IMG/VR virus record: IMGVR_UViG_3300030390_000538
Location: 1-21,337 of that record
Direction: 5' to 3' (one strand)
DNA length: 21,337 bases
Origin: a virus
This document shows positions 783 to 7,617 of the stretch, one piece after another. Below the pieces are notes generated by a model that saw only the letters and a program-made list of their open reading frames with translations, was not told the DNA's origin and ran no database searches. Position numbers and translations under genes: made by a program. Every line of letters starts with the position of its first letter. The stretch's first letter is position 1.

Positions 783-815
783 AAAAAAGTGAGAAGTTAT
801 TAACCCCTCACTCTT
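781..815 (-). terminator. Intrinsic terminator ending the structural and lysis operon
   Basis: Two 14-base arms (815-802 and 798-785) pair completely around an AAT loop when read as minus-strand RNA, with three G-U wobbles, and the stem runs into a T-tract (788-780). Read as plus-strand RNA the three wobbles become A-C mismatches and no T-tract follows, so the signal is directional. It lies 53 bases after the holin stop and before the promoter of the next gene. Confidence 0.85.
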
Positions 816-3263: not shown

Positions 3264-4580
3264 TTATTGCTCTACTGTTATTTCTTTTCTTTCTACCTCT
3301 CCATCTCCATCATCATCTTTCTCCACTACTATTACCTCTCTGTCTGCAACAAACATATCCCCATCCTCTAGCATTGGCAAGTCCTCATCAATTAATGCTC
3401 TTTGTTCGTTTATAGTAAGAACTTGTTTTATATCAACATCATTTGCGTATGAGATTGGTGGTTCGTAATGAATCTTTAAATCTTTAGGGTCATATCCTAG
3501 TTCATTATAAAGAACTGTTCTTATACCATTTAATATTAACTCAGAAGTATCTCTAATTACTGTAGTCATTACCAAGTCATAAGCAATTCTAATCTCACTA
3601 CCAGAGTTATTCATTTTACCTGAACTAACAATACCTGATAATGAAGGTTGCCATCTGTTAGCAGTTATAATATTTTGGTCTGTAATCTGTTGTAAATCAA
3701 TCCAACTTCCTTCTTGGTCATCTTTTATAATCTGAACATTAGCAGGAGATGTATCTCCATTCTTAACTATAAATAGAATTTTACCATTATTACCTTCTCC
3801 TACAAATTTCTTTTGAGCTTCATGAACCATCTTTTGAGCTTCTTCTTCTCCCATATCTCCACTAATCTCAACGATAGCTGAAGGCTGAAATCCATTTAAG
3901 AATTTAGTGTGATTCCATTTTCCAATCTCGTAATCAACACAGATATGCTCTAGTGCTGCTACATAATCAGGAAGTCCGTAAAAGTTAAATGTAGGCTCGT
4001 AATCTTTAAAGTGAATTACAAACTTGTTATGTGCTACTCTAGGGTATATAGGTAGTCTTTTTATTTTTTTATCTTGATTCCAATACTTACACCAATCAGG
4101 GTTTACATAAACCTCTTTCTTGGTTTTTGACATTCTTACAGTAGTTGCATCTAAATGGTAAAGATTTACTCCACCATCATATATAACACACTCCATATAA
4201 GCATTACCAAAAGTATAGTAATCATCTGCTAATTTCTTAAATACATCTCTTAGAGATTCTTTATCAGCATTAACATCTTCAATAAATTCTCTTAATGATT
4301 CGTTTTCACAAACAAATTTAGCTCCACTTGTAAATACAGTCTTTTGAGCCAATACACTCCTATGTGTAGAGGATTTTCTCTTTAACTCTGCCAAATACTG
4401 AGGAAATAAGTTATCATCTCCAAAAGGCACCCAATCGTGATTAAGTGTTTTAAGGTCTTTTACTTCAGTAATACTTGGTGGAACTGTTAAATCAAATACT
4501 CCAAACTCAAAAGTATTACTCTTTTTCTGAGTCTTTCTTGTTACTGAGCTTTTTACTGACTTTGTTGATGCTTTCTTCAT
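3264..4580 (-). CDS. Portal protein
   Basis: A 438-residue protein with the layout of PBSX/HK97-type portals: a basic N-terminal tail (residues 1-22); a conserved-looking entry segment HDWVPFGDDNLFPQYLAEL; a helical region with TFGNAYMECVIYDGG; a mid-region with FYGLPDYVAALEHI; and a loop and stem region with NNGKILFIVKNGDTSPANVQ. Twelve subunits of such a protein form the DNA channel at one capsid vertex. The start overlaps the preceding gene by 65 bases; no other ATG exists before residue 130 or so, so the overlap is accepted. The C-terminus carries a perfect 12-residue EF-hand-like loop (D422-E433) followed by only five residues, reported separately. The portal lies downstream of the capsid gene, the reverse of the usual order. 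Confidence 0.82.
   Translation of the reverse strand: MKKASTKSVKSSVTRKTQKKSNTFEFGVFDLTVPPSITEVKDLKTLNHDWVPFGDDNLFPQYLAELKRKSSTHRSVLAQKTVFTSGAKFVCENESLREFIEDVNADKESLRDVFKKLADDYYTFGNAYMECVIYDGGVNLYHLDATTVRMSKTKKEVYVNPDWCKYWNQDKKIKRLPIYPRVAHNKFVIHFKDYEPTFNFYGLPDYVAALEHICVDYEIGKWNHTKFLNGFQPSAIVEISGDMGEEEAQKMVHEAQKKFVGEGNNGKILFIVKNGDTSPANVQIIKDDQEGSWIDLQQITDQNIITANRWQPSLSGIVSSGKMNNSGSEIRIAYDLVMTTVIRDTSELILNGIRTVLYNELGYDPKDLKIHYEPPISYANDVDIKQVLTINEQRALIDEDLPMLEDGDMFVADREVIVVEKDDDGDGEVERKEITVEQ
3282..3317 (-). other. EF-hand-like calcium loop at the portal C-terminus
   Basis: These 12 codons encode DDDGDGEVERKE, which fits the EF-hand loop at positions 1, 3 and 5 (Asp), 6 (Gly), 8 (Val), 9 (Glu) and 12 (Glu). 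The preceding segment (ADREVIVVEK) is more strand-like than a typical E-helix, and only ITVEQ follows, so a full helix-loop-helix is not seen. Calcium binding is inference. Confidence 0.5.
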
Positions 4581-4806
4581 TAGATGATTTTTTATTAATT
4601 TTCTCTACATAATGAGAGCCATTATCTGCTTCTTCATAAACCCAAGCAAGAATCTCTTGAGTTGCTGTACTCCAATTAACACGCAAACCTTTAAATCTAG
4701 TCGCAGCACCTTCGTATTGTTTTTTAAATCTATATTCAGCCATATTTGTATATATATTAATATGTGGCAAATCTACCACAATTTTTTTAGAATTACAATT
4801 ACACAT
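4516..4806 (-). CDS. Small protein upstream of portal, 96 aa, unknown function
   Basis: Not recognised. The 96-residue frame starts with an ATG placed immediately after the T-tract of the upstream terminator hairpin. It begins with a Cys motif (MCNCNSKK), has a mixed middle part with aromatic residues (YRFKKQYEG, LRVNWSTATQEILAWVYEE) and ends in a Lys/Ser/Asn/Glu-rich tail that overlaps the portal start by 65 bases in another frame. An internal ATG (residue 22, position 4743; MAEYRFKK) has the ATATGGC context shared by most genes here and may be the true start, giving 75 residues. In that case the first 21 codons would be leader. Position beside the portal suggests a head or connector role, but nothing in the sequence proves it. 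Confidence 0.55.
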   Translation of the reverse strand: MCNCNSKKIVVDLPHINIYTNMAEYRFKKQYEGAATRFKGLRVNWSTATQEILAWVYEEADNGSHYVEKINKKSSNEESINKVSKKLSNKKDSEKE

Positions 4807-4851
4807 AAAAAAGATATAAATAGGGGGTGTTCATAACCCCCTATATATCTT
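4807..4851 (-). terminator. Hairpin terminator or attenuator between tail tube and portal group
   Basis: A perfect 9-bp GC-rich stem (4844-4836 with 4828-4820, core GGGGGT/ACCCCC) closes a 7-base loop. It is extended outward by seven further pairs (4851-4845 with 4817-4811) across a two-base bulge. Reading leftward on the minus strand, the stem runs into six T (4812-4807), giving a classical intrinsic terminator. In plus orientation no T-tract follows. It starts ten bases after the tail tube stop and ends exactly at the next ATG, so it would reduce portal-group transcription relative to capsid and tube genes. Confidence 0.82.
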
Positions 4852-4860
4852 AATTTACTA

Positions 4861-5442
4861 CTATGAAGTAGTAGCAGTTAAATCTCCTGATACAACTGTA
4901 ATTGCTCCTGAATAATTGAAAGGTAACTCAAACTGTCTTGCAGTTAATGTTACTGTCAATCCGTTATCATCAGCATAAGCAGAACCTGTTCCTCCTTCAA
5001 TAGAAGTTAAGTTTGCATAAGTTTGATTTCTTGTCCAAGGAGTAGTTGATGCTGATAAATTCTCGTATCTATATGAGAATCCAACTACAAAAATTTCTCC
5101 TGAGTTCATTTCAACCATTGCTACAGGACAAGTATCCTCTAGGTCTGAAAGTTCAGCCATTCTGTTTGCAGTCATATCAGGGATATAGAAAGATAAAGCA
5201 CACTCGTAAGCTGTACTTCCACCTTCTTTTGTTCCTGATATTGCTAATGCTGCAGTTTCGTTTTTGAACTCAAATCTCGCCCAAGGGTTTGTAACTGTAA
5301 GCTCTGTAATAATGTGGGTAGCTGGAGCTACAGCTGGTGAGACAGTTGCGATATTGTCTAGGTCTGTAAGTAGAATTTGTCTAATCCCACCTACTGCGTT
5401 TAAGTCGCCACAATCGACTAATAATCCTGAATCTATTGGCAT
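4861..5442 (-). CDS. Probable major tail tube protein
   Basis: A 193-residue protein with an N-terminal segment (LLVDCGDLNAVGGIRQILLTDLDNI) and a beta-rich body containing short strands (ARFEFKNETAALAIS, CALSFYIPD, CPVAMVEMNSGEIFVVGFSYRYEN). It ends with a strand-rich region around GTGSAYADDNGLTVTLTARQ. This pattern fits tail tube proteins, which build the stacked rings of the tail. It directly follows the capsid gene with a 25-base AT-rich spacer and precedes a strong terminator, so it would be expressed at a level like that of the capsid, as expected for an abundant virion protein. A capsid decoration protein is the main alternative. No Shine-Dalgarno; the ATG sits in an A/T-only context. 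Confidence 0.55.
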   Translation of the reverse strand: MPIDSGLLVDCGDLNAVGGIRQILLTDLDNIATVSPAVAPATHIITELTVTNPWARFEFKNETAALAISGTKEGGSTAYECALSFYIPDMTANRMAELSDLEDTCPVAMVEMNSGEIFVVGFSYRYENLSASTTPWTRNQTYANLTSIEGGTGSAYADDNGLTVTLTARQFELPFNYSGAITVVSGDLTATTS

Positions 5443-5467: not shown

Positions 5468-6583
5468 TTATGATGTTAAACAAACTCCGTAAATCAAGTT
5501 ACTCCATCCGTATTGGAAGCCCATTGTGAAGTAAGAACGAATAAGCATATTATCAGAAACCTCATCATAGAACATTTTTAATTCATTCTCAGGTGCAGTA
5601 ACATCTGTACCAATGAATAAATTAGATGTAGCTGTATAGATAACTCCGTTAGTTGCTTGGAAAGCTGCTGCTCCTGAATCAACTACTGTAAAGATAGCAG
5701 GTAAATCTGCTCCTGTTCTTGCAGTTAAAGCTGTGTCCCACTCATACATAGCAACCACTTCAATACCTCTGTAGAATAATCTTGTTTTTCCTGCTTGTGC
5801 TTCAGAATGTCCATAATCAACTGCTCCTGCTTGTGCAACTAAAGTTAAAGAAGCATAGTAAGCGTTATAAACATTTGGTGTAACAAACATTCTTTTTGCT
5901 GATGCCTCTACTTGCTGTAATTCAGCAGGTGCAGAAGCGAAAGCCTTGTCTAATAATAAAGCAACATCTACAATAGCGATTGTTCCTCCAACTACATTGT
6001 AGTCTGCTGCTGCTCCACCACCTGTTACTCTTTGTAATTTTTTATTGTCTGCAAAGTTTGCATCTCCTGCAAGTAAGTCCCAAAGACCTGCTCCCATAGA
6101 AGTATAAGTACAGTCTGCATTTGCAGGTATTCCTGCTCCTGAAGCCATTCCTGCCCACATATTTCTAACCATATCGTTAGAGATACCGTTTCTAACTCTG
6201 TCAATAATAACTTGAGCTAACTGAGTTCCTGATAAGTCAGGCATATTGATACCATTCTTATAAGACTCTACGATTACTTCTGATTTGAACTCATCCCAAC
6301 ATTGAGTTTGCTTTACAGAAACATTTTCAACTGTTATAGTTTTTTGTACTACTTCAAATGTAGTACCCGTACAACTATTTGCTTGACAACCTGTATTAAG
6401 GGCTGTAATGCTCTTTAAAGATGGTGCCATTAAAATATTTTGCTTGTACTTTACATTTGGATAGATAGTATAATTTCTCATTATATCATCTGAATGGAAC
6501 ATTGGTTCCAATAAAATTTTTGAAGCATAAGTACCATTGTACGCTGCTCCTAAGCCATTTTGTGCTATATCTGTTGCTGCCAT
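5468..6583 (-). CDS. Major capsid protein (HK97-fold type, inferred)
   Basis: A 371-residue, Ala/Gly/Thr-rich protein encoded directly after the prohead protease, the standard partner arrangement. The N-terminus (MAATDIAQNGLGAAYNGTYASKILLEPMF) may be a flexible arm; a Cys pair appears in GCQANSCTG. The middle has KRMFVTPNVYNAYYASL, a stretch of the kind seen in capsid P-domains. The C-terminus (RSYFTMGFQYGWSNLIYGVCL) is aromatic-rich. Length is typical of HK97-type capsid proteins lacking a long delta domain; a separate scaffold may therefore come from the protease gene. No cleavage site could be placed with confidence. The gene starts MAATD in the AAAAATTATGGC context. Assignment rests on neighbour, size and composition. 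Confidence 0.78.
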   Translation of the reverse strand: MAATDIAQNGLGAAYNGTYASKILLEPMFHSDDIMRNYTIYPNVKYKQNILMAPSLKSITALNTGCQANSCTGTTFEVVQKTITVENVSVKQTQCWDEFKSEVIVESYKNGINMPDLSGTQLAQVIIDRVRNGISNDMVRNMWAGMASGAGIPANADCTYTSMGAGLWDLLAGDANFADNKKLQRVTGGGAAADYNVVGGTIAIVDVALLLDKAFASAPAELQQVEASAKRMFVTPNVYNAYYASLTLVAQAGAVDYGHSEAQAGKTRLFYRGIEVVAMYEWDTALTARTGADLPAIFTVVDSGAAAFQATNGVIYTATSNLFIGTDVTAPENELKMFYDEVSDNMLIRSYFTMGFQYGWSNLIYGVCLTS

Positions 6584-6602: not shown

Positions 6603-6980
6603 TTATTTTAAATTCATTTTAGATACAATTCCATTCCAGAATTTAGTATCATTACCTTCTACTTTATTTTCTACTACTACTGCAGGGTCGCCATCTGTAG
6701 ATATTTCAGTTCCCTTTGCACTTGCTTTACTTAATAAAGCGTTAAGTCTTTCTACTTCTTGAGTAAGAGTTTCTTTTTCTCCTGTCAATTCAGCGATAGA
6801 CCCATTAAGTTCAGTAGCACTACTTTCTAAATCTGAAAATTTATTTAAAATCTCAGCCTCATCAGAAATACTAACATCAACTTTTTTTGAATCAACAGAA
6901 TCGTTAGACTCATCACTTTTAACTCTTGCGATAATATCTTCAACTTTCCCATTAAACCAATTTTTTAACTCATCAGTCAT
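6603..6980 (-). other. Possible internally initiated scaffold protein nested in the protease gene
   Basis: An in-frame ATG at 6980 (residue 209, MTDELKNWFNGK) is preceded by an A-rich stretch (AAAAAGTAAAAAA) that resembles the start contexts of other genes here. Translation from it would give a 125-residue, coiled-coil, acidic protein sharing the protease C-terminus, as lambda Nu3 does within gene C. The sequence shows the start and context; use of the start is inference. Confidence 0.4.
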
Positions 6981-7604
6981 TTTTTTACTTTTTAGGTTAT
7001 TACTTAATTTGTTTTTAACTTCTTCATTTGTTATATTTCTAAACTTAGAAACATCATATTTGGCTGCTACTTTAATAGCATCCGAGATAGAATCAATAAA
7101 TCCTAGTTCTAGTGCTTCTTCAGCATTTAACCAAGTTTCTTCATCCATCATTTCTTTTACCTTATCATAAGGTAATTTAGTTTTTTTAACATATATATCA
7201 GCAATCTCTCCACTAATCTTATCTAAAAGATTTGCTGTTTTTTTCATTTCTTTAGCCTCTCCCATTGCTCCACCCCAAGCGTTGTGAATCATAAATAAAG
7301 AGTTCTCAGCCATAACTACATTATCTGCAGCTAAAGCAATAACACTACCCATACTAGCAGCAATACCTTCAATATATACCGTAGTAGTTGCAGTCCTTTT
7401 CTTTATTATATTATAGATAGCCATTCCATCAAATACATCTCCACCCACACAATTAATGTGCAAATTCATTGGGGAGTCCTTAAAAGATTTGATTTCTTCA
7501 ATGAATCCTTGAGCATTTACCCCACCCATTCCTATCTCATCAAAAATATAAACATCAACAACTTTAGATGCTTTTGAATTTATGTTATACCATTTTTCAT
7601 TCAT
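6603..7604 (-). CDS. Prohead protease (ClpP/S14-like) with scaffold-like C-terminal region
   Basis: A 333-residue protein in two parts. Residues 1-180 form a ClpP-like serine protease domain: NCVGGDVFDGMAIYNII (51-67), the nucleophile motif IAASMGS with Ser84, and FMIHNAWG with catalytic His107; an acidic third member is expected near MDEETWLNAEEALELGF (153-169). Residues 209-333 are polar, rich in Glu, Lys and Ser and predicted coiled-coil around 255-295 (LESSATELNGSIAELTGEKE), ending in DTKFWNGIVSKMNLK. Such tails act as scaffold during procapsid assembly in other phages. The protein would mature the prohead and remove scaffold. An in-frame ATG at residue 209 could give the tail as a separate product. 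It is the first gene of the head block after a 55-base gap that holds a possible promoter. Confidence 0.88.
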   Translation of the reverse strand: MNEKWYNINSKASKVVDVYIFDEIGMGGVNAQGFIEEIKSFKDSPMNLHINCVGGDVFDGMAIYNIIKKRTATTTVYIEGIAASMGSVIALAADNVVMAENSLFMIHNAWGGAMGEAKEMKKTANLLDKISGEIADIYVKKTKLPYDKVKEMMDEETWLNAEEALELGFIDSISDAIKVAAKYDVSKFRNITNEEVKNKLSNNLKSKKMTDELKNWFNGKVEDIIARVKSDESNDSVDSKKVDVSISDEAEILNKFSDLESSATELNGSIAELTGEKETLTQEVERLNALLSKASAKGTEISTDGDPAVVVENKVEGNDTKFWNGIVSKMNLK

Positions 7605-7609
7605 GGAAA

Positions 7610-7617
7610 CAAAAATA
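7610..7617 (-). promoter_or_regulatory. Possible -7 promoter element before the head gene block
   Basis: TATTTTTG on the minus strand (7617-7610) matches TAnnTTTG and lies five bases before the protease ATG, within a 55-base intergenic space (7605-7659), larger than most in this operon. No TTTG was found 19-21 bases upstream, so the match is only half of the consensus and could be chance in AT-rich DNA. Confidence 0.25.

Follow-up and report, generated by a model that had tools for sequence, protein, structure and literature searches.

In the window, by which we mean the whole 21,337-base virus record analysed here, the gap between a tail-tube-like gene and the next start codon is filled by a GC-rich hairpin followed by six T residues. 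This element is probably a leaky intrinsic terminator that would close a unit composed of a promoter, the protease gene, the capsid gene and the tube gene. A U-tract that runs straight into the next start codon would be an unusual layout of a known type of control, and a termination step is its most likely function to judge from the sequence.

The hairpin and the late genes

The late genes of the window lie on the minus strand and follow one another, in gene direction, from the protease through the capsid, the tube-like protein and a 96-aa MCNC protein to the portal. The features that bear on the argument are these:

7610..7617, minus strand: candidate Bacteroidota -7 promoter box TATTTTTG, 5 nt before the protease ATG
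6603..7604, minus strand: ClpP-type head maturation protease, 333 aa (PHROG 94, E 2.1e-73; Pfam CLP_protease)
5468..6583, minus strand: major capsid protein, 371 aa (predicted HK97-type fold, best E 5.4e-7; position after the head protease)
4861..5442, minus strand: tail-tube-like protein, 193 aa, by predicted fold; the gene ahead of the hairpin
4863-4855, minus strand: stop region of the tube gene, TAG TAG TAA, read from the sequence
4811..4851, minus strand: whole hairpin, with outer stem 4851-4844 / 4818-4811 and a 2-nt bulge at 4820-4819
4821..4843, minus strand: GC-rich core stem-loop, with arms 4843-4836 / 4828-4821 (8 bp in the minimum free energy, MFE, fold) and loop 4835-4829
4807..4812, minus strand: T6 tract adjoining the ATG at 4806-4804; the MFE fold pairs its first two T
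4516..4806, minus strand: 96-aa MCxC protein (ORF call), its ATG abutting the T-tract
3264..4580, minus strand: portal protein, 438 aa (Pfam Phage_portal PF04860, E 1.3e-18; PHROGs)

The capsid model has a mean pLDDT of 61, and the product of 4861-5442 can be called tail-tube-like at the level of the fold only: its predicted structure gives weak PDB matches to phage tail proteins and matches to viral models up to E 1.5e-12. Neither this 193-aa protein nor the MCxC family has a PHROG or Pfam match. Searches with tblastn found no cultured relative of the capsid, of the tube from two clades or of the MCxC protein, and an alignment of the tube against genome contigs, made for prophage or host copies, gave zero relatives. 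With capsid and tube assigned by predicted fold, the hairpin lies after the capsid-tube pair and inside the late operon. That the host belongs to the Bacteroidota is suggested by the TAnnTTTG box, by the A-rich contexts of the start codons and by a distant match of the window portal to the portals of Nonlabens phages (24-25% identity).

The sequence-only reading had described a hairpin with a GC core, outer pairing and six T that touch the ATG of the next gene, and the minus strand carries exactly this arrangement (T6 at 4812-4807, ATG at 4806-4804), with the core measuring 8 bp in the MFE fold. That reading had also taken the next gene to be the portal, which proved mistaken, as the 96-aa ORF comes first and the portal start overlaps its end. 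Its central proposal, a leaky terminator after capsid and tube, is still the best explanation and has comparative support, with the correction that the portal is not the gene that immediately follows. Its suggestion of a control point released by an antiterminator or by translation of the tube gene gained no support. The hairpin fills the gap from the tube-like gene to the next ATG with 16 bp and then T6, and the T-tract is found on the sense strand only. The 63-nt stretch has an MFE of -20.8 kcal/mol (z -3.6), with 1 of 200 shuffles equally good, and the element (-18.0) is the strongest hairpin with at least five T on either strand of the window, a value that none of 100 whole-window dinucleotide shuffles reached (best -16.1). 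It is the first listed of 9 terminator-like sites in the window, the total number of such sites being near chance (mean 7.4). Directly 3' of the GC core, the U-rich stretch is broken up (TTTATATC) ahead of T6, which counts against a terminator.

The further statement that the region has almost no other strong hairpins is roughly right, but a canonical terminator-like hairpin with a run of nine T is present at 785-815 (minus strand), after a 70-aa ORF ending at 869. A second small hairpin, at 4763-4780, was rejected: it lies in coding sequence (VVDLPH) and is missing in some relatives. On the minus strand at 1986-2154 there is also a 169-nt gap of conserved length, which was dropped as a regulatory region because a short ORF that aligns among relatives lies in it, at about 50 codons under the usual ORF cut-off.

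The upstream boundary of the proposed unit is suggested by the promoter-like box. TAnnTTTG is present in 64 of 65 distinct relatives, the exception being L108, and its distance to the protease ATG is exactly 5 nt, or 4 nt in L114. A conserved block was also seen further upstream of this box. In Flavobacterium johnsoniae, many promoters have 4 or 5 nt between the -7 box and the transcript start (PMC6847099), and with this spacing the box would therefore predict a leaderless protease mRNA. Because the box stands ahead of the protease, the hairpin would close a likely unit of promoter, protease, capsid and tube.

A promoter directly downstream of the hairpin, which the sequence-only reading had recognized would make termination irrelevant, is not indicated by the box: none of the 91 distinct members of the family described below has a TAnnTTTG match from -40 to +20 relative to the MCxC start. 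Matches do cluster at +260 to +310 of that start, near the beginning of the portal gene, but a promoter there was rejected, since the codons of the portal motif N-T-F-E-F-G account for them and the free codon position varies; apart from them, neither a gap nor a promoter box was found before the portal. The same search bears on the idea that TATCTTTT, directly before the ATG, is itself a -7 box for a leaderless MCxC mRNA. The stretch does resemble TAnnTTTG, and a leaderless-type spacing of that box exists before the protease gene. However, the box is absent from the interval where it would have to lie, its final G is nearly invariant in F. johnsoniae (PMC6847099), and the TATCTTTT stretch pairs with AGATA and changes together with it (GC to UA) in the L145 group, so we regard the chance of a promoter here as next to negligible.

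Conservation of the element among relatives

Relatives were collected in three scans of viral contigs with tube queries, which gave 66, 80 and 80 confirmed loci that overlap, the second scan keeping the best 80 of 100 and the third the best 80 of 303. A filter for the MCxC ORF (motif and length) was passed by 181 sequences, window included, some of them second fetches of one contig; 17 loci were left out because they end before the MCxC gene, are incomplete or are unlike the filter. The 181 sequences, from scans limited in this way to their best loci, reduce to 91 distinct gap sequences, and all 91 contain a counterpart of the element, with tube stop, short spacer, complementary arms, T-tract and ATG TGY. 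Sorted by sequence, the gaps form clade F (n=42, with the window in it), clade A (n=26) and clade B (n=23). In nearly all members the element starts about 10 nt after the tube stop and ends 0-9 nt before the ATG.

The stability of the hairpin differs greatly among clades. Clade F hairpins are GC-rich, with a median of -21.2 kcal/mol and a median z of -5.0, so that the fold exceeds chance in the clade as it does in the window. The AT-rich hairpins of clades A and B are weak, with medians of -10.8 and -10.2 kcal/mol and z of -1.25 and -1.0 (weakest -5.2). They can be drawn with AAAGATA/TATCTTT as the outer stem, ATAGG/CCTAT as a second stem, a hairpin inside these and GUAA(A) recurring in single-stranded form.

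Base pairing appears to have been conserved in evolution in clades F and A. In the clade F core, 4 of 7 pairs have changes on both sides, and 93.2% of core cells are paired, compared with 39-69% in slid controls. The numbers of double-change cells and the covariation score exceed those of shuffles (reached by 0 of 500 and 2 of 500), whereas the numbers of changed pairs and of pair types do not (reached by 290 of 500 and 456 of 500). In L108 the core letters have been swapped out and pairing is still kept; loops change freely, as in the GAAA loop of L054-L062, and the outer stem AGATA/TATCT is kept in relatives. Clade A has both-side changes in 3 of 17 pairs, including the GC to UA change in the outer stem of the L145 group. 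For clade B, covariation on a hand-given structure was not above shuffles, and the case for structure there would be only that the arms remain complementary. The counts for clades A and B were made on hand-given structures because RNAalifold, run on MAFFT alignments, put the outer stem out of register and yielded little for these two clades.

Their position, the shared outer stem and the matches of a covariance model built for clade B (R3) suggest that the F, A and B elements are one family. R3 has its best match at this gap in each of 34 whole contigs (E 3.7e-17 to 0.023), including all 17 contigs of clade F (E 3.9e-7 to 0.023), part of the score on clade F coming from the shared T-tract and start codons. 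Model R1 matches this gap strongly in 17 clade F contigs and gives weaker matches about 700 nt upstream in A/B contigs, which pointed to a hairpin in the capsid gap. At the gathering score, no curated covariance model of Rfam 15 matched the window or 14 clade A/B loci.

In the gap between the capsid gene and the next gene, clades A and B have a strong hairpin (-16.4 to -22.6 kcal/mol) with two to six T and a 25-32 nt leader in 48 of 48 parsed rows, out of 49 (1 of 23 clade B rows was unparsed). In clade F, no hairpin was found in 29 of 30 distinct capsid-tube gaps, which are 27-38 nt long, nor by the automated parse in its 11 parsed rows (31 of 42 were unparsed); one member, L014, has both hairpins. 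The strong hairpin with T after the capsid in A/B suggests that high-copy genes repeatedly end in sites of this kind and, taken with the site before the MCxC gene, that a strong hairpin with T would stand where expression passes from the capsid, or from both capsid and tube, to the genes that follow.

The T-run is itself a distinctive property of the site. Of 41 elements, 19 have a run of at least six T within 25 nt before the start, as against none of 487 other gene junctions (longest run, in 41 sequences of at least 8 kb, with junctions from a simple ORF caller). Its length is 3-7 in clade F and 6-10 in 22 of 23 members of clade B. Among the 26 members of clade A, 12 have no run longer than 3, which leaves the U-tract after the stem unconvincing there, unlike T6 in the window, and this is the chief finding against reading the element as a terminator and nothing more.

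Termination, translation and sensing

If the element is a leaky terminator, RNA polymerase would make the GC core and stall on the weak A/U-rich stretch behind it, and most polymerases would stop within the U-tract, just ahead of the next ATG. A minority would read through, giving transcripts that encode MCxC, the portal and proteins further on. In such read-through RNA, the hairpin and U-tract would occupy the ribosome-binding region, which has none of the usual A-rich start context, and low translation from the first MCxC ATG would therefore be expected. Capsid and tube are generally high-copy proteins and the portal a low-copy one. We infer that termination occurs, how efficient it is, that some polymerases read through and what this does to protein levels from several comparative observations which seem to support this course of events: the compensatory changes, the T-run enrichment, the promoter-like box, the capsid-gap hairpins and a similar hairpin in Nonlabens phage P12024L. 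Against it, the weak forms of clades A and B, with z about -1 and three T in 12 of 26 clade A members, are poor for an intrinsic terminator, and they would leave room for a different or a further role of the RNA itself.

A role in translation is suggested by the MCxC start itself. A at -6 is present in 0 of 42 clade F starts and in 4% of those in B, compared with 58% of other starts and 98% of tube starts, T occupies -6 in 100% of clade F, and the start region has a mean pairing of 0.61-0.70 against 0.34 at tube starts; clade A is milder, with A at -3 in all and at -6 in 42%. Structure and missing A at -3/-6 reduce initiation in F. johnsoniae (PMC6847099). The hairpin could thus bridge the tube stop and the MCxC start and block or couple initiation of MCxC, and perhaps of the portal, while transcription continues; it does fill the whole gap in nearly all members, and in contigs with two tube genes it follows the second and so stays with the MCxC start, the gaps between the first and second tube genes being short and empty. 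Tandem pairs of tube-like genes were seen in L116, L121, L125, L126, L130, L131 and L167. Translational control does not explain the long T-runs, such as those of clade B, nor the capsid-gap hairpins with T-runs (L132, L139 and L194 among them), which are followed 25-32 nt downstream by an ordinary A-rich start. As the sole function it is possible but rather unlikely; being compatible with termination, it may act together with it.

The MCxC protein has M1, C2, C4 and M22 invariant across 34 aligned relatives. The context of the Met near residue 22 is rich in A (A at -12 in 98%, at -6 in 85%), so two in-frame MCxC starts are possible. This is only a lead, because these A-rich bases are at the same time codons for conserved residues.

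Placed behind the most expressed genes, a hairpin that is stable and conserved, with loops free to vary, would also fit a site of RNA processing or a 3' stabiliser that protects the end of the capsid-tube mRNA, or is cut by an RNase, without termination; the T-run has no explanation there, and we consider this very unlikely. A protein-binding or sensing RNA element, of which the simple hairpin of the window would be a reduced form, is suggested by the invariant CGUAAAA of clade A, the recurring GUAA of clade B and the single strong copy per contig, always in this gap. Yet the clade of the window is without the motif and its loop varies freely, and the conserved letters elsewhere may reflect recent shared descent, which makes this proposal highly improbable as it stands. 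A historical version is unlikely as well: an ancestral structured regulatory RNA of the A/B form would have stood before MCxC, binding a phage or host protein or sensing virion assembly to set MCxC-portal output, and in the clade of the window it would have decayed into, or been replaced by, a simple GC hairpin keeping the terminator or roadblock part.

If leaky termination is what the element does, an uncultured marine phage group would set the ratios of its virion proteins by hairpin-and-T steps within a single late operon, with the strong step placed after the capsid in some clades and after capsid and tube in others. Comparing clades would then allow a test of how terminator position relates to protein copy number. 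A U-tract abutting the ATG would also be a space-saving means of reducing the next gene's transcription as well as its translation.

Comparison with known systems

Terminators after the major coat genes, with read-through to low-copy genes, are known from filamentous and phiX174-type phages. Those are small ssDNA phages that differ from the window phage and have no homology to it. We found no report of the present element in the literature covered, which includes few subscription papers, nor in the available text of PMC5592923, PMC6847099, PMC10994844, PMC9723704, PMC6316719 and PMC5313236. The siphophage SPP1 has predicted stem-loop terminators at the borders of its late-gene clusters (PMC6316719), comparable to the one proposed for the window; SPP1 is an unrelated phage with a Firmicutes host.

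A further comparison is the cultured flavobacterial phage P12024L (Inhavirus, P12024S/L), where a GC hairpin with a run of seven T lies after the tube-type gp03 and before gp05 and the portal gene. This hairpin was read from the sequence in our analysis and is absent from the record annotation. Unlike the arrangement in the window, a gene on the opposite strand lies between the hairpin and gp05, which has a separate start, and the P12024L hairpin may therefore serve convergent transcription. In the same genome (NC_018272; L198 150-695 and 3954-4553), paralogous tube-type gp03 and gp09 flank the portal gene.

The closest parallel in function would be phage T7, in which the hairpin terminator T-phi comes directly after the major capsid gene 10, and genes 11 and 12 are expressed only by read-through (PMC5592923). 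In both phages a hairpin site would close a unit containing the capsid gene, with later virion genes downstream. T7 has its own single-subunit polymerase, and in it the capsid alone precedes T-phi, whereas the window has a box of the cellular promoter type, a tube gene inside the unit and a T-tract touching the next ATG, and there is no homology between the two. A leaky terminator after the major capsid gene is thus known from T7, and what appears to be new is the layout in which the U-tract leads into the next start codon.
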